Positions 11,604-25,398 of a stretch of DNA of 38,783 nucleotides are shown here, one piece after another (position 1 is the first letter of the stretch; each line of letters starts with the position of its first letter). Below the pieces are notes generated by a model, which was given only the letters and a program-made list of their open reading frames with translations, was not told the DNA's origin and did no database searches. The stretch is from Candidatus Roizmanbacteria bacterium. Its GTDB lineage: Bacteria > Patescibacteriota > Microgenomatia > UBA1406 > GWC2-37-13. The translations under genes and the position numbers were made by a program. The stretch spans positions 1 through 38,783 of the forward strand of contig JACOYT010000019.1 in NCBI GenBank assembly GCA_016181725.1. Direction: 5' to 3'.

Positions 11604-12662
11604 ATGGCGCTTCTTACTCTACCCGGCCTTATCGATATGCATGTGCATCTTCGGGATCCGGGGCAGACGTGGAAGGAGGATTTTTACACCGGGACGGCCG
11701 CCGCCTTGGCCGGAGGATTTACCACGGTCTTTGATATGCCGAATAATGAGGAACCGATTATATCAGTTAAACGGTTAAACAGGAAGATAAAAGAGGCGAA
11801 GAAAAAAATCGTGTGTGATGTAGGGTTCTATGGGGGAGCGGTAGGGAGTAGTTTTGAGAGCTTAAAGGGTTTAGAGGGAAAAGTGTTTGGACCGAAGCTT
11901 TACTTAAATGTAACGACCGGTGGATTTATGATTGACGTAAAAAAACTTGAACAAATATGTCATATTTGGCATGCAAGACAGCCTATTTTAATCCATGCTG
12001 AAGGTAGGATGATTACGGGCGTGATAGATATCGTAAAGAAAACAAGCGTGAAAACGCACGTATGCCATGTCTCGGGGATTGAAGAATTGAAACCAATTAT
12101 AAAAGCGAAAGAGGAGGGGTTACCGCTCACATGCGGGGTGACACCCCACCATTTATTTCTAAACGAACGTGACCTTTCCAGTTTAGGACCTTATGGCGTG
12201 ATGAAGCCGCCTCTTAAATCGAAAAAAGACCAAGAGTTTTTATGGAGAAACCTCAAATATATCGACGTTGTTGAATCCGATCATGCCCCTCATACCAGAG
12301 GCGAGAAGGAATCCGAAAATCCTCCCTTCGGCGTCCCAGGATTGGAGACCACCCTTCCCCTTCTTCTTTCAGACAAGCGAATTACAATCGGCGATGTTGT
12401 TAGGCTCTGCTATAAAAACCCCAAAAAGATACTCGGTGTAAAAACCGATCGCACGACAAAAGTCGTTGTTGACACAAATTCTCAATTCATAATTCACAAT
12501 TCCAAATTGCATACGAAATGCGCATGGTCGCCTTTCCATGGATGGAAAGCGCGAGGAAAAGTAAGACGAGTTTATATCCGCGAGCGAAAAGTTTTTGAGG
12601 ACGGAAAAGTCTTAGTCAAGAGAGGATTTGGGAAGGTGATGTTTCCTTCTTTTAATCCATGA
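11604..12662 (+). CDS. pyrC: Dihydroorotase
   Basis: LPGLIDMHVHLRDPGQTWKEDF, ILIHAEG, HVCHVSG, ESDHAPHT metal-binding motifs; carries NSQFIIHNSKL repeat insertion. Confidence 0.92.
   Translation: MALLTLPGLIDMHVHLRDPGQTWKEDFYTGTAAALAGGFTTVFDMPNNEEPIISVKRLNRKIKEAKKKIVCDVGFYGGAVGSSFESLKGLEGKVFGPKLYLNVTTGGFMIDVKKLEQICHIWHARQPILIHAEGRMITGVIDIVKKTSVKTHVCHVSGIEELKPIIKAKEEGLPLTCGVTPHHLFLNERDLSSLGPYGVMKPPLKSKKDQEFLWRNLKYIDVVESDHAPHTRGEKESENPPFGVPGLETTLPLLLSDKRITIGDVVRLCYKNPKKILGVKTDRTTKVVVDTNSQFIIHNSKLHTKCAWSPFHGWKARGKVRRVYIRERKVFEDGKVLVKRGFGKVMFPSFNP
12478..12513. repeat. Short in-frame repeat (NSQFIIHNSKL) in pyrC
   Basis: attctcaattcataattcacaattccaaattg, same style as the repeats at 5297 and 5512. 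Confidence 0.7.
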
Positions 12663-13016
12663 TGCGATTTCCTCCAAGGACAACTTATGTGAATCAACAT
12701 CAAGAGTAAACTGTATTGATTCTTTTTTAGGAAGTTTCAAAATCCACCCGTTTTTTGCCAGGAAAGCGGCGCAGCTTGTGATTGCAGTTCTTTTATTCCC
12801 ATCGTCAAACGGATGGTTAAGGATAAGCGACTGGATGAGAGCCGCTGCTTTGCCAAAGAGCGTTGCATACAAATCCGATCCCCCAAACGTTGCTTTTGGA
12901 CGCTCAACAGCCGAGTGAAGCAAGGTAAAATCATGGACATCTGGTCTACCGCCAAACAAACGAATCATCTGCTCGTGGATAACAAGCACCTCATCGACAG
13001 CGAGATACTGAGTCAT
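12612..13016 (-). CDS. doc: Doc (Fic-fold) toxin
   Basis: LLHSAVERPKATFGG and HPFDDGNKRTA Fic/Doc motif; adjacent AbrB-type antitoxin. Confidence 0.9.
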   Translation of the reverse strand: MTQYLAVDEVLVIHEQMIRLFGGRPDVHDFTLLHSAVERPKATFGGSDLYATLFGKAAALIQSLILNHPFDDGNKRTAITSCAAFLAKNGWILKLPKKESIQFTLDVDSHKLSLEEIASWIKRRKHHLPKSSLD

Positions 13017-13270
13017 GGAGTGTTTGCCAATTCTTTAAGGAGAGCCTTATGCTTCTTTGTAAAGGCGTTCAGCCATTTTTTAAACTCCGGCGAAACAGCT
13101 GTTTTTGCTTTTTTCTGGTGGGGACGTGAGGGCCTGACAATGATCGTTGAGGTTTCTTCTAAAGCCTCGATTTGTAATTTTCTCCCCACTTTCATCTTCA
13201 TTTTATTGACCAACTCTTTTGGGAAAATCATCCCAAGCGAATTGCCTACCTTAATAACTTTTTGAGTCAT
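13013..13270 (-). CDS. SpoVT-AbrB-type antitoxin
   Basis: MTQKVIKVGNSLGMIFPKELVNKMKMKVGRKLQIEALE; overlaps doc start by 4 bp. Confidence 0.85.
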   Translation of the reverse strand: MTQKVIKVGNSLGMIFPKELVNKMKMKVGRKLQIEALEETSTIIVRPSRPHQKKAKTAVSPEFKKWLNAFTKKHKALLKELANTP

Positions 13271-13286
13271 ACGAAAGCTTCTTAAC

Positions 13287-13305
13287 GTTATAACAATGTT
13301 ATAAC
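13287..13305. promoter_or_regulatory. Tandem GTTATAAC palindromes, candidate TA operator
   Basis: GTTATAAC-aat-GTTATAAC with 11-bp centre spacing, directly upstream of the antitoxin ATG. Confidence 0.7.
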
Positions 13306-13360
13306 ATATACGAGGAAAAGTCAAGAGAGCTTAATGATATAAGGGTCCTGAACTAAAAAA

Positions 13361-14302
13361 TTAATCAAGCGTTTTAAGTTTTCCACGAAAATCTTCAAGT
13401 GAATCGTATCCTCTCTTTTTCATGTAGGAGACAAGCTCCATTTGGATTCGCGCAAAACATTTTGGACCTTCTTGCATATACACCGTCCCAAGTTGCACTG
13501 CCGTTGCGCCCGCAAGAATAAATTCGAACACATCAACGCCTGTAAAGATTCCGCCCACTCCTACAATCTTAATCCTATTCCCAACGAGTTCGTAAAATTT
13601 CCTCACGTTTGCAAGAGCGGTGTATTTGATGAAGCGCCCGCCCAAACCACCAAATCCTCCTTTTGGCTTTATCACAGGCTGTTCCTTTTTTGGGTCGATG
13701 ACCAACGCGTTGCCGATCGCGTTAATACAGGAGACATACTCGACGGGATATTTTTGAAGTACTTTCGCCATGCCCTCAAAATGTACAAAGTCAAAGTAGG
13801 GAGGGAGCTTCACCCCCAAAGGTTTTTTGCAAATTTTTGTAAGTTTCGCAAGACTTCTGTCCATCTCCCCAATATCATACCCAACAATCGGCTTCCCAAT
13901 GGTATTAGGCGAGCCGGGATTGAATTCGATTATGTCGGCAGCTGAATTATTAAATGCTTGAAACATAGTGACGTTGTCTTGAAGCGACATCCCACAAATA
14001 CTTGCAATCACAGGCTTTTTATATTTTTTCTTCAAAGTCTTTGCGAATTTTATGTATTCTTTGTATCCGAGATTGGGAAGCCCCATCGAATTTATGGAGG
14101 ACTTGCCAGGAAGATCTACGTAACGCGGTTCTGGATTGCCAACTCTTGGCTCAAGTGTACACGATTTCATAGTGATCGCGGATGCTTTTGATTTCGCAAT
14201 TCTTTCAAGAAGAGGAAGGGTTTCGTCTTTCGGTCCTGAGGCATTGAAGATACAGGTTTCAAACTCAAACCCGCCAATTGTTACGCCAATTTTAGGTTGC
14301 AT
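13361..14302 (-). CDS. pyrD: Dihydroorotate dehydrogenase, class 1A-like
   Basis: NASGP, KSCTLEPRVGNPEPRYVDLPGKSSINSMGLPNLG, LGVKLPPYFDFVHFE, GGLGGRFIKYTALANVR, GVGGIFTGVDVFEFILAGATAVQLGT; ATG at 14302. Confidence 0.92.
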   Translation of the reverse strand: MQPKIGVTIGGFEFETCIFNASGPKDETLPLLERIAKSKASAITMKSCTLEPRVGNPEPRYVDLPGKSSINSMGLPNLGYKEYIKFAKTLKKKYKKPVIASICGMSLQDNVTMFQAFNNSAADIIEFNPGSPNTIGKPIVGYDIGEMDRSLAKLTKICKKPLGVKLPPYFDFVHFEGMAKVLQKYPVEYVSCINAIGNALVIDPKKEQPVIKPKGGFGGLGGRFIKYTALANVRKFYELVGNRIKIVGVGGIFTGVDVFEFILAGATAVQLGTVYMQEGPKCFARIQMELVSYMKKRGYDSLEDFRGKLKTLD

Positions 14303-14368
14303 GTGGACGATGATTATGACATGAGAGAAACACATTGTCAAGGGACTTATCTTGTATAATACTTTCCA

Positions 14369-15019
14369 ATGAAGCTTACTAAAAAGCAGAAAAGCCTGTG
14401 TCTTGAGCTTTTTAAGATCGGGGCAATAAAGTTTGGCGAGTTTAAATTGAAGCTTCACGATGAGAATCCCAAAGCGCCGCTTTCCCCAGTTTATATCGAC
14501 CTTCGGATCCTTCGAAGATTTCCAAAAGCAAAAAGGGCGGCAGTCGATGTGTATGTTGAGCTTCTTCGCCCTTTAAAATTTGATCTTTTGGCGGATGTGC
14601 CAACTGCCGCAACGCCATTGGTTTCCTCATTGTCAGACCGGTTGAGGGTTGGGATGATCACACCAAGAAAAGATGCGAAAAAGCATGGGAGCGGGGCGAA
14701 GGTGGATGGAATGGTAAGAGAAGATAAGGGAAAGAAGGCGGTCATGGTTGATGATTTGGTGACGCGGGCCGACTCAAAACTTGAGGCGGCAGAGACCTTA
14801 AAGAGCGAGGGAGTAAGGGTAAAAGACATTGTTGTTCTGATAGATCGCAAGCAGGGCGGGGGAAGGCAGCTTAAAAGCAAAGGATACCGCCTCCGAAGCG
14901 CACTCACCATGCAGCAGATGCTGGATTTTTATCTTGAAAAAGGCGTAATTAAAAAGAGGGTTTACCAAAACACCGTCTCCGGAATCACCGCCCTCAACAA
15001 GTTTTTAGGCATAAAGTAG
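14369..15019 (+). CDS. pyrE: Orotate phosphoribosyltransferase
   Basis: KKAVMVDDLVTRADSKLEAAETLKSEGVRVKDIVVLIDR PRTase motif; next to pyrD. Confidence 0.8.
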   Translation: MKLTKKQKSLCLELFKIGAIKFGEFKLKLHDENPKAPLSPVYIDLRILRRFPKAKRAAVDVYVELLRPLKFDLLADVPTAATPLVSSLSDRLRVGMITPRKDAKKHGSGAKVDGMVREDKGKKAVMVDDLVTRADSKLEAAETLKSEGVRVKDIVVLIDRKQGGGRQLKSKGYRLRSALTMQQMLDFYLEKGVIKKRVYQNTVSGITALNKFLGIK

Positions 15020-17261: not shown

Positions 17262-17365
17262 TTTTTCCTTGCCTCATAAACTTTGTTTCTAGATAAAAGA
17301 ATTGGTTAAGAAAACAAGCTTTGTAAAAGACCATGATATAATAATTGTCTATTCTTCTCCAATCT

Positions 17366-18457
17366 ATGGAAGATTTTGCTGAACGATTTCCTGTATTCCA
17401 TCATCATTTTTCTCAACTTAAACTTAATAGATACGTGTTTACTTTTGTATATCACTTAAACACAAATAATGCTCCCTTCTTAGAGTATTGGGTTAGACAG
17501 ACAAATACATTGGCTGTTATCTCAATTCCTTATTCAGAAATCGTCGAAGTAAAAAAACGCCTCAAGAGATTGATACGAGTATTTTCACCGCAAAACTTTA
17601 ATGAGATTTCTAGATATATTAAAAAGATTAACGATGCGCATACAAAGAAAAATATTATACTTGTTGAGATTGGAGGCTACTCTTCGACTATAAGTCAAAA
17701 ACTGCATAATGTAATTCTCGCAGTTGAAGACACAAACTATGGCCACTGGGCTCATATTAAAAAAGGGGGACGGAATTTCCCTGTTGTCAGCATGGCACAA
17801 GCACAAGTAAAAATGCTTGAGAATAGGCTTATCGGAGAATCAATAATAAGAACTGTTGAGAATATAATTAACGAAGTACTTTCAAACGAAAGGCTTGCGA
17901 ATAAGACAATCGCTGTAATTGGATACGGAGGTATTGGGAGTTCTGTATGTCTTGCTTTAAGAAGGAGAAATATTATCCCTTACGTTTACGACATTGATCC
18001 ATACAAAGCCGCACTTGCACATGCTGACAGCTATAAAATAGCGCCTAGACAGGGCGTTTTGCAGATCGCAGATATCGTTTTAGGATGTACGGGAAAACAT
18101 AGTGTGATGGTCAAGGACGGCCATCTTATTAAAAAGGGGGCATTTTTATTCAGTGGATCTTCTAAAAAAGTAGAATTTAGTAGTCTTTTACAACTAGAAA
18201 AAGAACCAACCAGGCATAGCGTTATTGAAAAATATAAATTTGAGCAAAATTATTTTTATATTGCATATAATGGACAGCCAATAAATTTTCTTGACACTTT
18301 GCAGCCAGAATTATTTGATATACAATTTGCTGCCCTTACGCAATGCGTAAAATATGGGCTAGAGAAAAAATTATCAAACGCCGTGCACCCTTTACCTTAC
18401 ACATATCAGACTTCCATTTTGAATTCGTATATACAGAACAACTATTCAAAGAGATAG
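17366..18457 (+). CDS. S-adenosylhomocysteine hydrolase-like NAD-binding protein
   Basis: LAVEDTNYGHWAHIKKGGRNFPVVSMAQAQVKMLENRLIGES...NKTIAVIGYGGIGSSVCLALRRRNIIPYVYDIDPYKAALA...GCTGKHSVM aligns by eye to SAHH. Confidence 0.7.
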   Translation: MEDFAERFPVFHHHFSQLKLNRYVFTFVYHLNTNNAPFLEYWVRQTNTLAVISIPYSEIVEVKKRLKRLIRVFSPQNFNEISRYIKKINDAHTKKNIILVEIGGYSSTISQKLHNVILAVEDTNYGHWAHIKKGGRNFPVVSMAQAQVKMLENRLIGESIIRTVENIINEVLSNERLANKTIAVIGYGGIGSSVCLALRRRNIIPYVYDIDPYKAALAHADSYKIAPRQGVLQIADIVLGCTGKHSVMVKDGHLIKKGAFLFSGSSKKVEFSSLLQLEKEPTRHSVIEKYKFEQNYFYIAYNGQPINFLDTLQPELFDIQFAALTQCVKYGLEKKLSNAVHPLPYTYQTSILNSYIQNNYSKR

Positions 18458-19234: not shown

Positions 19235-20404
19235 TTAAAAAAATTGACTCGCGAGCTTATTAATATGTTTATAGTGCCGTACGTAATTTTCCTCCTTAGC
19301 AATTTGCAAAGCCCTTTCTACCTTTGTCGTAAGATAACTTTTATCCTTAGTTTTAATGGCAATAGACATCTCTAAGTCGCTTCTTACCTCAGAAACCTCA
19401 TGGATTCTCCTTCCTTCAAGACCGGCATTAAAATGCTTGGATGCCAATTCTTTGATTTTCAGTGGATCCGATAGATGAAATATTGCTACCCCTTCCGAGA
19501 TTATATTAAATAAGTTAAGTCCGTTTAAAAAATGGGTAGGATTGGTTTGCGGTAACTGATTTAACGCGGTTTTTTTAAGGTTTATAAAATCTTGCTTATC
19601 GCGAAGGTATATCATGCACGCAATGATATTTCTTAATGCAAAAAGTTTTTCGTGATTTGAGTCAGGAAGAAGTTGAAATGCTCTTTGTGCTTGATTAATT
19701 GATCGGCCATATAGGGATTTAGCTCTGAAACTGTATGAATAATTGCCAGCGACATAATAAGCACCTGCTAGAATAATATTTCCATAAGCCTCATAGACAG
19801 GGTTTTTATTTTGTTTAGCTATGGTAATAAGTTGTGAGACGATTTTTACAGCTTCATCTACAATTACATTTGGCAGTCCAGTGGCGCCAAGAGCATTTCC
19901 TTTCAGAAACAAGACTGTTCCCAGCTGTTCTAATAGCTTTTTTCTTAAGGACGCTTTTTTGACTATGTGCAAACTTTTTTGTATGTAAGTATGCGTTATA
20001 TTTGCTATACTTTCCTGGTCGTCATTTTTTCCTTTTAGTCGATAATCCAAAGCTTTATCAAGTAAAGAATCAAAAAGGTCAAGAATATCATAATTAATTT
20101 GAGAAGATAAAGGGAGAGAGACTCCATATTTTTTAACCTGATCTAAATATAAAGCGTATTCAAGCTTTTCTTTTTCCCGTTCAGGTAAGGCGAGCACTTC
20201 GCAAAAAACTTCAAGTTGTCGAGGCGTAAAAAGACGCACCCCATTGAGAACTCTAGATACGACACTCGCATCGATGCCTCTGTACCCTAGCCGTTCCCAC
20301 ATCTCCAGTGAAAGTTGATTCAATGAAAGATTACTTCTGAAGAGGAGTTTATTCCCCGATCTTACGTAGTACTTTTTTAGAGCTTCTCCAAGATGGGTAG
20401 TCAT
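19235..20404 (-). CDS. HTH + helical-repeat (TPR-like) regulator, paralog 1
   Basis: N-terminal HTH-like SLNQLSLEMWERLGYRGIDASVVSRVLNGVRLFTPRQLEVFCEVL; paralogous along its length to 24223..25398. Confidence 0.7.
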   Translation of the reverse strand: MTTHLGEALKKYYVRSGNKLLFRSNLSLNQLSLEMWERLGYRGIDASVVSRVLNGVRLFTPRQLEVFCEVLALPEREKEKLEYALYLDQVKKYGVSLPLSSQINYDILDLFDSLLDKALDYRLKGKNDDQESIANITHTYIQKSLHIVKKASLRKKLLEQLGTVLFLKGNALGATGLPNVIVDEAVKIVSQLITIAKQNKNPVYEAYGNIILAGAYYVAGNYSYSFRAKSLYGRSINQAQRAFQLLPDSNHEKLFALRNIIACMIYLRDKQDFINLKKTALNQLPQTNPTHFLNGLNLFNIISEGVAIFHLSDPLKIKELASKHFNAGLEGRRIHEVSEVRSDLEMSIAIKTKDKSYLTTKVERALQIAKEENYVRHYKHINKLASQFF

Positions 20405-20524: not shown

Positions 20525-21340
20525 ATGTCAGAAGAACGTGAGCGAAGCCAAGGACGTATAGCAGAAATCAATTACCATTTATTATGGAATAATCCGGGAT
20601 TATTAATTAGAGCCCGAAAGGAAGCCTTTATTATGAAAAGAGAGTCTCTGATAGAGCGTCTTGGTGAGTGTCCCCTTCCAATCCGGATTCAGACATCCCT
20701 TCCTCTTTCTCAAAAAGAGCAGGACGCTATTAAAATTAGAGAAAGAGTGGGACGGTTTATTCTTCTTCAGGAGGTGGAGCAGACATATCACATGTACGTG
20801 TATGGAGACAAAACTACCGGTCAAGAACACATCGCGCTTATTAAAGGGCTTAAGAACGGGGAAAATGTTCCAATGCGTATACACTCTTCTTGCATAACAG
20901 CAGAAACCTTTCGTGCATCTAATTGTGATTGTGCAGAACAGCTGCAGACCACATTAGATATAATTGAGAAAGAAGGGTTTGGGGGCATCATACGGCTCCA
21001 ACAGGAGGGAAGAGGAAATGGGCTCGTAGGGAAAACGCGGCAATTAAAACTTATGATCCAAAAAGGAATTGATACGGCTGAGGCATTTAGGGAGGCAGGA
21101 TACCCCATTGATCAAAGGGATTATACGGTAGCCGCTGACATTTTACATGATCTTGGGGTAGAAAGCATTCGTCTTATTACCAACAATCCAGATAAAATAC
21201 AACAGATTAAAAACCAAGGGGTCAAGGTAAAAGCTCGCATCCCTTGTGAGGTTACACCATCCAACAGTATCGTGCGAAAAGATCTAATAGCAAAAAGAGA
21301 CAAGTTAGGGCATTTTATAAGTGAGAAAAATACACTATAA
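20525..21340 (+). CDS. GTP cyclohydrolase II-like protein (RibA family) with N-terminal extension
   Basis: Zn ligands SSCITAETFRASNCDCAEQ, RLQQEGRGNGL, PIDQRDYTVAADILHDLGVESIRLITNNPDKI; start may instead be ATG 20633. Confidence 0.88.
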   Translation: MSEERERSQGRIAEINYHLLWNNPGLLIRARKEAFIMKRESLIERLGECPLPIRIQTSLPLSQKEQDAIKIRERVGRFILLQEVEQTYHMYVYGDKTTGQEHIALIKGLKNGENVPMRIHSSCITAETFRASNCDCAEQLQTTLDIIEKEGFGGIIRLQQEGRGNGLVGKTRQLKLMIQKGIDTAEAFREAGYPIDQRDYTVAADILHDLGVESIRLITNNPDKIQQIKNQGVKVKARIPCEVTPSNSIVRKDLIAKRDKLGHFISEKNTL

Positions 21341-21980
21341 GCTTTTTATATTTGATTTCGATGGCACCCTTGTTGATTCGCGAATAAATATTGCAAACAG
21401 TCTTAATTATGCCCTCTCACGACATGGCTTTCAAAAAATTCATGCAAAGAATATTTATCCTCTGATCGGGAAAATACCTATAGAAGAAACAATAAAGAGC
21501 TTCTATCCTAAGCTCGATAGGAGAACAATTGAAAGCATAACGAAAGACTTTCGCATATATCAAAAATTACATGCAAAAAAAGAAGTTGTGTTTTTCCCCC
21601 ACGTCTTAAGAACTTTGAAATTCCTAAAAAGCAAAAAGAAACAACTTGCAATATTAACAACAAAAAACGCGAAACAAACCATAAGCTTGCTTAAAGTCTT
21701 TCGCATACATACGTTATTTGATGTTGTATATGGAGGGGGGATGCCAGCTGGCGAAAAACCAGCAAGAAGTTGTATAGAGTTCATATGGGCAAAAATAAAA
21801 GAGACTATGCCATTTGAGACGGTATTAATTGGAGATTCAGAAGTCGATTGTATTGCAGCACAAAATGCTCAAATAGATATGATCGGAGTACCTCACGGCG
21901 TTGACCCACAAGACGTGTTAAAGAGTAAAGGGGCGGTGTATATTCTTAATACTTTCAAAGAGCTTAAACAATTTATTTAA
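21321..21980 (+). CDS. HAD-superfamily phosphatase (phosphoglycolate phosphatase-like)
   Basis: FDFDGTLVDS and IGDSEVDCIAAQNA; overlaps ribA-like gene by 20 bp (GTG start). Confidence 0.88.
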   Translation: MRKIHYKLFIFDFDGTLVDSRINIANSLNYALSRHGFQKIHAKNIYPLIGKIPIEETIKSFYPKLDRRTIESITKDFRIYQKLHAKKEVVFFPHVLRTLKFLKSKKKQLAILTTKNAKQTISLLKVFRIHTLFDVVYGGGMPAGEKPARSCIEFIWAKIKETMPFETVLIGDSEVDCIAAQNAQIDMIGVPHGVDPQDVLKSKGAVYILNTFKELKQFI

Positions 21981-21989
21981 TATCTTTAC

Positions 21990-22880
21990 ATGAAAGAACT
22001 CTTGAACGTCGGCTACGCAGCAATTGACCAAATTAAGGGAAGGGAATATTATGGCGGGGCCGCCGCAGGAATTGCAATTAATGGGAAAAATTTAGGCTTA
22101 CAGACGGGATTACTTGCACTTTTTGGATCCGATGAAAGGAGCAAGATATATTGGAAATACTTAACACGGCTAGGAGTTGATCTCTCACTCTCTTACATCA
22201 GTGATCATGTAAATCTTCCTGTGAATATTGTCTTATCTGATGAAAAGGAACATAGATGGAACGACTTTGGGATATTTCGGTTTTTCAAAGATATACAAGT
22301 CGAATCGAGCTTGATAAATCAATATAAAGTCATTCATTTAGCAAGCGCTCATTATACGCTCGTAGATAAGGTCCTTTCTCGAAGAGACCAAAAAAAAGGA
22401 ATTCTTACCTACTCACCTGGCCCGAAATTATTAATAGATAAGTCATATCTTCAAAGAGAAGCTTTAGCAGCTTCAGAAATTGTATTTTTTAACCAGCGTG
22501 AGTGGGAAAAAATACAAGGGCTACTTGGCATAAATCATCCGAAAGATCTGTTCCGATTCGGTCCCCGCGTTGTGATCGTAACCTGCGGAGAGGATGGAGC
22601 TTTGATTTTTTCAGAGAAACGGGGCGATCTTCTTGAGCGGTACGTTCCAGCTTTTCGAATCGCAAATCCTGAACCAACTGGTGCGGGCGATGCTTTTGCA
22701 CTGGGTTTTATTATTGGTTACATAAACAGCCTTTCTTTGGATACATGTGGGGAGATAGGAAGCGTTCTAGCGGCCGCTTCGGTAAAAAATGACGGCATTG
22801 TTGCCACCACATCTGGAATTAGGAGGTTTAAAGAAGTGTTATATCTAAACAGTGTGACGAGAAACACCTTAATTGTATGA
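21990..22880 (+). CDS. PfkB-family carbohydrate/nucleoside kinase
   Basis: YYGGAAAGIAINGKNLGLQTGLLALFGSD and NPEPTGAGDAFALGFI. Confidence 0.88.
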   Translation: MKELLNVGYAAIDQIKGREYYGGAAAGIAINGKNLGLQTGLLALFGSDERSKIYWKYLTRLGVDLSLSYISDHVNLPVNIVLSDEKEHRWNDFGIFRFFKDIQVESSLINQYKVIHLASAHYTLVDKVLSRRDQKKGILTYSPGPKLLIDKSYLQREALAASEIVFFNQREWEKIQGLLGINHPKDLFRFGPRVVIVTCGEDGALIFSEKRGDLLERYVPAFRIANPEPTGAGDAFALGFIIGYINSLSLDTCGEIGSVLAAASVKNDGIVATTSGIRRFKEVLYLNSVTRNTLIV

Positions 22881-23602
22881 ACAAGGGTAGGAATGTTCTT
22901 ATAACTGGAGCAACAGGAGAGATAGGATTTGCAGTAGTGGAGCATTTAGTGAAAGAAGGATACCGTCTGATTCTTTGTGATGTGAAAAATAATAAAAAAA
23001 GAGAGTTGAAGATCTTGAGAAAAAGATATCCAATCGAATTGCATGAATTTGACCTTCGAGACAACAAAATGACTTCGAAAGCGCTTAAATATATTGGAAG
23101 ACAATATCGGGCATTTTATGCGCTCGTTAACAATGCGGGGATATATCCTATTAAGAAAATCAACGAGTATGACCTGGCATTGTGGAATGAAGTAATTTCA
23201 GTGAATCTAACTGGTGCCTTTCTTTGTGTCCTATACCTACGACCTTACGTATCTCCTGGTGGGAGAATTGTAAACATTGCATCAACCGCAGCGCATCTAG
23301 GAAGTAGGGATCCAGGATACAGTGCATCAAAAGCCGGATTAGTTGGCCTTACTAAAGCGATTGCACGCAACCTATCACGTTTTGACATCAGGGTTAACGC
23401 TATTGCTCCAGGGCTAATTGATACGAAGATGTCGCAAGAAATGACTAAAGAAGATAGGAAAGGGCTAATTCAAAGCGCTCTTATTAAAAGAGCTGGAAGA
23501 CCGTCTGACGTTGCCTCTGTTGTGAGCTTTCTTCTATCCCCAGGCGCGGACTTTATCACCGGGGCGACTCTCGATGTGAATGGCGGAATTTATCTTCGTT
23601 AG
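22877..23602 (+). CDS. Short-chain dehydrogenase/reductase (classical, FabG-like)
   Basis: TGATGEIG, NNAG, YSASKAG, PGLIDTKM, GGIY; ATGA overlap with the PfkB gene. Confidence 0.92.
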   Translation: MNKGRNVLITGATGEIGFAVVEHLVKEGYRLILCDVKNNKKRELKILRKRYPIELHEFDLRDNKMTSKALKYIGRQYRAFYALVNNAGIYPIKKINEYDLALWNEVISVNLTGAFLCVLYLRPYVSPGGRIVNIASTAAHLGSRDPGYSASKAGLVGLTKAIARNLSRFDIRVNAIAPGLIDTKMSQEMTKEDRKGLIQSALIKRAGRPSDVASVVSFLLSPGADFITGATLDVNGGIYLR

Positions 23603-23648: not shown

Positions 23649-24254
23649 ATGAAAAGGATCATTCTTGCCTCCGCTTCGCCCCGAAGGAAACAACTTTTAG
23701 AGCAGATCGGCGTTCCCTTTCAGATTGTAAGAAGTGATATTGAAGAAGAACATATCAAAAGTGAAGACAGTCATCATAAACTTGCCCAACGTCTTTCTTT
23801 GGGAAAAGCACGTGCTGTAGGAAAAACACACAAAAACGCTATTATTATTGCGGCCGATACGATTGTTGTGTTTCAGAAAAGAATTATTGGAAAGCCAAAA
23901 ACTGAAGCAAACGCAAGCAAGATATTAAAATTATTATGTGGGAAAACTCACAAGGTCATAACCGGTTTCACTATTATAGATTCTGAATCGAGAAAATCCG
24001 TCACAAAATCTGTCGAAACAAAGGTCAAGATGAAGGCGTTGACAGACGAGGAGATTAAATCATACGTAAAAACTAAAGAGCCGTTGGATAAGGCAGGAGG
24101 GTATGGGATACAAGAGAAAGGCGCGATGCTGATCGAGAGCATAAAAGGGGATTATTTCAATGTCGTTGGCCTCCCTCTTGCCGCCCTTTCAGAAGAACTA
24201 AAAAAATTTGGGATAAGGCCGTTTACCCAAACGCTCTCTGGGCGAGCTTTTTGA
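23649..24254 (+). CDS. maf: Maf-family nucleotide pyrophosphatase
   Basis: ILASASPRRKQLLEQIG, AADTIV, GKP, DKAGGYGIQEKGAMLIESIKGDYFNVVGLPL. Confidence 0.93.
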   Translation: MKRIILASASPRRKQLLEQIGVPFQIVRSDIEEEHIKSEDSHHKLAQRLSLGKARAVGKTHKNAIIIAADTIVVFQKRIIGKPKTEANASKILKLLCGKTHKVITGFTIIDSESRKSVTKSVETKVKMKALTDEEIKSYVKTKEPLDKAGGYGIQEKGAMLIESIKGDYFNVVGLPLAALSEELKKFGIRPFTQTLSGRAF

Positions 24255-25398
24255 TGTTTTTGTAATGCCGTACGTAATTCTCCTCTTTTGCAATCTGCAA
24301 AGCCTTTTCTACTCTTACCTTCAGATCAGATTTATCTTTTGTCTTAAGCGCCAAAGACATCTCCAAGTCACTTCTGGTTTCCGAGACCTCATGGATGCGC
24401 CTCCCCTCAAGTGTAACTTTGAAATGGTTAAACGCCATTTCTTTAATCTTGAAAGGATCTGATGTCTGAAATATTGCAGCGCCTTCAGCAATAGCGTTGT
24501 ATAAGTTAATCCCGTTTAAGAAGTAGGTGTCGGCTGGAATTTTGGGGAGATGATCAAGAGCCGTTTTTTTGATTCGGAGAAAATCTTCCTTATCCCGAAG
24601 ATAGATCGTGCTTGTTGCAAGGGTCCTTAATGCGAAAAGCTTCTCCGCATTGTTGTCCGGAAGGACTTGATATGCTCTCTTTGCGCGGTTTATAGAATGC
24701 AGGTATAAAGACTTGAATCTTGAACTTGATGAATAATTGCCCGAAACATAATACGCGTAGGCAAGGAGGATATTCCCTGAGGCCTCATATCGAGGATTTT
24801 TTATTTGTTTGCTGATCTCAAAAAGGCGTCTGACTATCCCCATGACTTCATTCACAACCGTCTGTGGGAGCCATACGCCGCCTAAGGCATTCCCTTTTAA
24901 AACCAATGCCATGCCTAATTGATCCAACATCTTATTCCTGAAGTTTTCCTTTTTGACGCAGCGTACAAGTTTTTCTATATACGCCTCTATGATTTCCGCA
25001 ATACTTCTTTGATCGTCGTTTTTACCTTCCGATCGATAATCGCGGGCTTTTTTAAGGAGAGAGTCAAAAAGATCAAGGACGCCGTAGTCTAATTGGTGGA
25101 ATGGCGGGAGCGAGATTCCGTAGCGTTCAATATTATCAAGATACAAAGCATACTCAAGATGCTCCCTCTCCTTTTTTTCCAACTGAAGGACGGTGCAAAA
25201 GGCGTCAAACTGCTGGGGTGTGAAGAGACGATAACCGGAAACAACGCGAGAGAGAATGCTTGCATCGATCCCTCGATAACCCATAACCCCCCACATCTCC
25301 AATGCAAGCTGATTGAGCGAATACAGGTCCTTGAAGAGGAGTTTATTCCCCAACCGTACGTAGAATTTTTTAAGAGCTTCTTTAAGGTGGGCGCCCAT
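24223..25398 (-). CDS. HTH + helical-repeat (TPR-like) regulator, paralog 2
   Basis: Same architecture and strong identity with 19235..20404 (SLNQLALEMWGVMGYRGIDASILSRVVSGYRLFTPQQFDAFCTVL; EGRRIHEVSETRSDLEMSLALKTKDKS). Confidence 0.7.
   Translation of the reverse strand: MGAHLKEALKKFYVRLGNKLLFKDLYSLNQLALEMWGVMGYRGIDASILSRVVSGYRLFTPQQFDAFCTVLQLEKKEREHLEYALYLDNIERYGISLPPFHQLDYGVLDLFDSLLKKARDYRSEGKNDDQRSIAEIIEAYIEKLVRCVKKENFRNKMLDQLGMALVLKGNALGGVWLPQTVVNEVMGIVRRLFEISKQIKNPRYEASGNILLAYAYYVSGNYSSSSRFKSLYLHSINRAKRAYQVLPDNNAEKLFALRTLATSTIYLRDKEDFLRIKKTALDHLPKIPADTYFLNGINLYNAIAEGAAIFQTSDPFKIKEMAFNHFKVTLEGRRIHEVSETRSDLEMSLALKTKDKSDLKVRVEKALQIAKEENYVRHYKNIKKLAQRAFG

Follow-up and report, generated by a model that had tools for sequence, protein, structure and literature searches.

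A leucine-type GTP cyclohydrolase II-like enzyme of Candidatus Roizmanbacteria with a likely role outside riboflavin synthesis

The window analyzed here, a 38,783-nucleotide stretch of a Candidatus Roizmanbacteria genome, carries on its forward strand a gene for a GTP cyclohydrolase II (GCHII)-like protein of 271 amino acids (positions 20525 to 21340; PF00925, E=8e-47) with an N-terminal extension of ~85 residues. This gene heads a tight run of forward-strand genes. A PGP-like HAD phosphatase gene (21321 to 21980; PF13419, E=1.8e-35) overlaps it by 20 bp and is followed after a 9-bp gap by a PfkB kinase gene (21990 to 22880), a 4-bp overlap with an SDR oxidoreductase gene (22877 to 23602; PF13561, E=2e-52) and, after 46 bp, a Maf nucleotide pyrophosphatase gene that closes the run (23649 to 24254; PF02545, E=4.6e-65; TIGR00172 over cut-off). 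The five genes are presumably co-transcribed. The nearest solved structure to the PfkB kinase is MJ0406 (2c49/2c4e; E 1e-24), which we take to be a nucleoside kinase; the NCBIfam matches of the window kinase are ribose-1-phosphate and nucleoside kinases, all below their cut-offs.

The run is bracketed by two reverse-strand paralogs in the same orientation (19235 to 20404 and 24223 to 25398), seemingly XRE/TPR-like, with 64% amino acid identity and 67% DNA identity over 1.16 kb; they are possibly the footprint of a duplication or insertion. Further upstream lie an AdoHcy hydrolase-like gene (17345 to 18457, forward strand), whose sole match, a weak one, is to the NAD domain (PF00670, E 1e-9), and pyrC-, pyrD- and pyrE-like genes at 11604 to 15019, 5 to 9 kb from the run. 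A full AdoHcyase and a PfkB gene also occur near a non-Tyr GCHII-like gene at another locus (L034).

A preliminary description of this DNA had singled out positions 21032 to 21046 (AAAACGCGGCAATTA, translated KTRQL) as placing Leu where canonical enzymes have the product-determining Tyr, and this reading is borne out. In a phmmer alignment, residues 165 to 176 of the cyclohydrolase (NGLVGKTRQLKL; 21017 to 21052) pair with IGLLNKIRAYAL of E. coli RibA (2bz0), which sets Leu174 (codon TTA, 21044 to 21046) on Tyr105. Re-alignments by three MAFFT modes on random subsets, inspected for a Tyr at the equivalent position, returned Leu every time (36/36), and hhalign gave the same pairing between the clade profile and a Tyr-RibA profile; mis-alignment is thereby ruled out as the source of the Leu. 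Alignment with RibA likewise confirmed that the zinc cysteines C123, C134 and C136 (20891 to 20932) and the catalytic D196-Q-R198 (21110 to 21118; E. coli D126-x-R128) are kept, together with the nucleotide-binding E161-G-R163 and with T184, T219 and K224, the equivalents of Thr114, Thr149 and Lys154. The Glu53 position is Ser. The same description had drawn attention to QQEGR (residues 159 to 163; 20999 to 21013) in place of RQEGR. The change itself is real, and we dismiss it as uninformative because RibAs encoded within riboflavin operons vary at this site, reading HQEGR, DQEGR, NQEGR or QEEGR.

The protein scores 159.3 bits against a curated cut-off of 23.3 for PF00925 and also exceeds the NF001591 cut-off, whereas it falls short of the ribA equivalog TIGR00505 (154.1 bits versus 205.85). 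An AF2 model, computed from a shallow alignment of the window protein and related-locus proteins only (mean pLDDT 79.7), has 2bz0 as its best match (Foldseek E 1.7e-16, TMt 0.88). The window protein thus resembles E. coli RibA in fold, zinc cysteines, EGR, D-x-R and TNNPxK, and differs from it in Leu for Tyr105, Ser for Glu53, the N-terminal extension and a setting devoid of riboflavin genes. Domain searches of its own genome (824 kb, 95% complete) found one PF00925 gene and neither lumazine synthase (RibH; PF00885) nor DHBP synthase (RibB; PF00926), and the flanks of the cyclohydrolase gene hold no riboflavin genes. A scan of a wider collection of genome contigs with the window protein matched just one protein, a Micrarchaeota RibA that has the Tyr and lies in a riboflavin operon.

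Searches for relatives across the order (83 genomes) and the class (373 genomes) recovered close homologues in G401, G422, G718, G628, G522 and G465. Together with a tailed-phage protein, they form with the window protein an eight-member clade (bootstrap 98, SH-aLRT 97) in a tree computed without the Tyr105 column. Leu is invariant in all seven other members and all eight share a K-x-x-Q-L motif; Leu174 is therefore not a lone oddity. Forcing the window protein into the Tyr set was rejected (AU p 1e-4), in a test that includes long branches and a group named late. In each of the seven carrier genomes, all small, the Leu-type protein is the only GCHII found. The catalytic residues are conserved across the clade at about 40% identity. 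Glu stands in for Asp at the D126 position in most of the other members, and for Gln at the Q70 position in several; the window protein keeps both Asp and Gln.

The phage member was found by a viral scan that returned no matches with a three-row clade alignment and succeeded with a broader one. It lies on a 59-kb IMG/VR contig (IMGVR_UViG_3300022818_000179; L125) carrying portal, terminase, major head, head protease and tape-measure genes. The intact Leu-type gene (L125, 4878 to 5681) sits between head genes and glycosyltransferase-like genes; none of the PHROG families matches its product, which is ~60% identical to several clade members and 41% identical to the window protein.

The neighbors of the Leu-type genes vary between clade members. 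In G401, a PfkB gene orthologous to that of the window (42% identity, E 3e-80) lies ~1.7 kb away from the Leu-type gene, and a short HAD gene is present as well. Of the 83 genomes of the order, no others have this PfkB, and in both it is near the Leu-type gene. Apart from the window genome, two genomes of the order carry a Leu-type gene, and the chance that the second PfkB carrier would be among them is ~2/82. PfkB is also the sole ortholog that the window run shares with another clade locus, that of G401. Downstream of the Leu-type gene in G718 come genes for a UMP-kinase-like protein and a uridine kinase, with a HAD gene further on; at locus L088, genes of these two kinds follow directly. 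HAD types differ among the clade loci, the SDR is confined to the window, Maf is not conserved beside other members, and the phage fragment holds no kinase or phosphatase neighbors. Kinase and phosphatase neighbors are consistent with nucleoside or nucleotide processing by a set of enzymes that changes from member to member.

Beyond this clade, the residue at the Tyr105 position tracks genomic context. Among 104 aligned GCHII homologues, from loci with flanks of unequal length, 62 of the Tyr-type proteins were riboflavin-linked (riboflavin genes nearby or fused) and 17 were not, versus none and 25 of the non-Tyr proteins. This split is a pattern and not a corrected test: the Fisher p of 3e-13 counts related rows separately with no phylogenetic correction, and a tree-based pair test, of little power, yielded one independent pair on starred branches. 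The non-Tyr residue is Met in L112, L092, L038 and L039. In L113, L114 and L115, sequence reading places a Tyr-type GCHII domain behind an adenylate-kinase-like domain, followed by an NTP-pyrophosphatase-like gene, and no riboflavin genes were found nearby.

Non-Tyr GCHII genes of other clades have recurrent neighbors of their own. Creatininase-family genes, from the family that includes the known FAPy formamidases, adjoin them in L112 (Met) and in L046 and L047 (Leu), and PyrF-family genes lie beside them in about ten genomes; the two PyrF proteins tested both exceed the TIGR02127 cut-off. The single PF00215 (PyrF) match in the window's own genome sits on another contig. An orotidine-5'-phosphate decarboxylase or relative was noted near divergent non-Tyr genes in ten genomes (L035, L036, L038, L039, L058 and L093 to L097), in some cases accompanied by a guanylate-kinase-like or PfkB gene. 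A cysteine-rich protein of ~115 to 130 amino acids (YCxxC...LYQKDGPG) also recurs near non-Tyr genes in more than one clade (L035, 2592 to 2975; L036, 641 to 1054; L038, 4084 to 4479; L039, 5041 to 5439; L056, 6447 to 6782; L058, 2115 to 2462; and L097); no Pfam family matches the copy in L056, and a search of the window's own genome for this protein gave nothing at E<=1.

The absence of RibH and RibB from the genome, the lack of riboflavin neighbors, the separate all-Leu clade and the Tyr/context split together make a non-riboflavin role of the window enzyme well supported, in agreement with the non-riboflavin product that the preliminary description raised as a possibility. As for the product, Tyr-to-Met replacement in the Streptomyces coelicolor RibA paralog SCO6655 is reportedly associated with a stop at the formylated intermediate FAPy. 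The window enzyme resembles SCO6655 at this position, an aliphatic-type residue replacing the Tyr in both, Leu in the window enzyme and Met in SCO6655. Together with the creatininase neighbors of non-Tyr relatives in other clades, this makes FAPy a plausible product. The argument runs by analogy from those clades, since a PF02633 search of the window's own, 95% complete genome found no creatininase that could serve as partner.

A formamidase acting on FAPyMP has been demonstrated in bacteria, namely BrbF, first annotated as a creatininase, whereas the bacterial FAPy-forming enzyme that partners it was reported as still unknown (PMC9478397). The archaeal ArfA/ArfB and bacterial BrbF routes offer a proposed parallel to the window enzyme in their FAPy nucleotide intermediate; they differ from it in that its genome has no creatininase-family formamidase and its fold is that of PF00925, not GCH III. 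The creatininases of L046, L047 and L112 score below the ArfB cut-off, so that FAPy deformylase activity can only be suggested for them.

The substrate is probably GTP. Q139 (Gln70 in E. coli) and LITNNPxK are of the GTP type in a phmmer alignment with 7ej3, and UTP cyclohydrolase differs at both while keeping the Tyr. Other pocket positions differ, Glu53 being Ser in the window protein and Q70 and D126 being Glu in clade members; the substrate may therefore have changed. We favor, with slightly less than even confidence, a GTP-using, non-riboflavin enzyme that stops at a formylated FAPy-nucleotide and feeds nucleotide remodeling. The retained zinc site, EGR loop and D-x-R would open the imidazole ring of GTP and release pyrophosphate; with Leu in place of Tyr105, the second hydrolysis would not be completed and the formyl group would stay on a FAPy ribonucleotide. 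The HAD phosphatase may then dephosphorylate this product, the SDR oxidize or reduce its sugar or base, and the nucleoside-kinase-like PfkB re-phosphorylate it, with Maf perhaps clearing unwanted triphosphates.

An unlikely alternative keeps the non-riboflavin pathway and makes the substrate a pyrimidine nucleotide, UTP-like as in the URC-pathway UTP cyclohydrolase. The PyrF-family genes beside other non-Tyr homologues in about ten genomes, the kinase genes directly downstream in L088 and the pyrimidine genes upstream in the window all point that way, as does the presence among the fold matches of the UTP cyclohydrolases 7eev and 7ej3, which share the fold superfamily and serve a non-riboflavin pathway. 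Yet these enzymes keep the Tyr, have Tyr for Gln70 and read SMSNMK for TNNPxK, none of which the window protein shares; at ~18% identity in structural alignment they are also more distant from it than 2bz0, the closer structure.

Nucleotide-pool sanitation, in which damaged guanine nucleotides such as 8-oxo-GTP would be hydrolyzed with the help of Maf and the HAD phosphatase, is less probable still. In vitro, 8-oxo-dGTP is a substrate of E. coli RibA, Maf belongs to the same gene run, and genes that by sequence reading belong to an NTP-pyrophosphatase-like family follow GCHII genes in L037 and L113 to L115; this leaves the PfkB nucleoside kinase, the SDR and the all-Leu clade unexplained, and Maf is not a conserved neighbor. 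We give equally little credence to an ordinary GCHII whose normal deformylated product would serve either alongside scavenged intermediates or in a partner cell. Its catalytic and zinc residues are all kept and the PF00925 and NF001591 cut-offs are exceeded, but the genome has neither RibB nor RibH, the score lies below the ribA equivalog cut-off, and the invariant residue is Tyr in all riboflavin-linked homologues but Leu in this clade. A non-catalytic or decaying paralog, conceivable from the loss of one active-site residue, is very improbable given the intact ORF, catalytic residues conserved at about 40% identity, the tight gene run and the intact phage-borne copy.

Annotation routinely assigns GCHII genes to riboflavin synthesis. 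Among the homologues compared here, a single residue sets the riboflavin-linked enzymes, which all have Tyr, apart from a group that was never observed next to riboflavin genes; for this group the annotation is therefore probably wrong. Direct candidates for the FAPy-forming partner of BrbF are provided by the non-Tyr homologues with creatininase neighbors. More speculatively, the preferred FAPy reading might extend to a new nucleotide pathway, found in bacteria with small genomes and in one phage or more. The Leu-type enzyme would there convert GTP to a formylated ring-opened nucleotide, from which enzymes encoded nearby would, by remodeling and re-phosphorylation, make a nucleotide or nucleoside metabolite of non-canonical type. 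The Leu clade, with its phage member, offers an assayable entry point to such a pathway.
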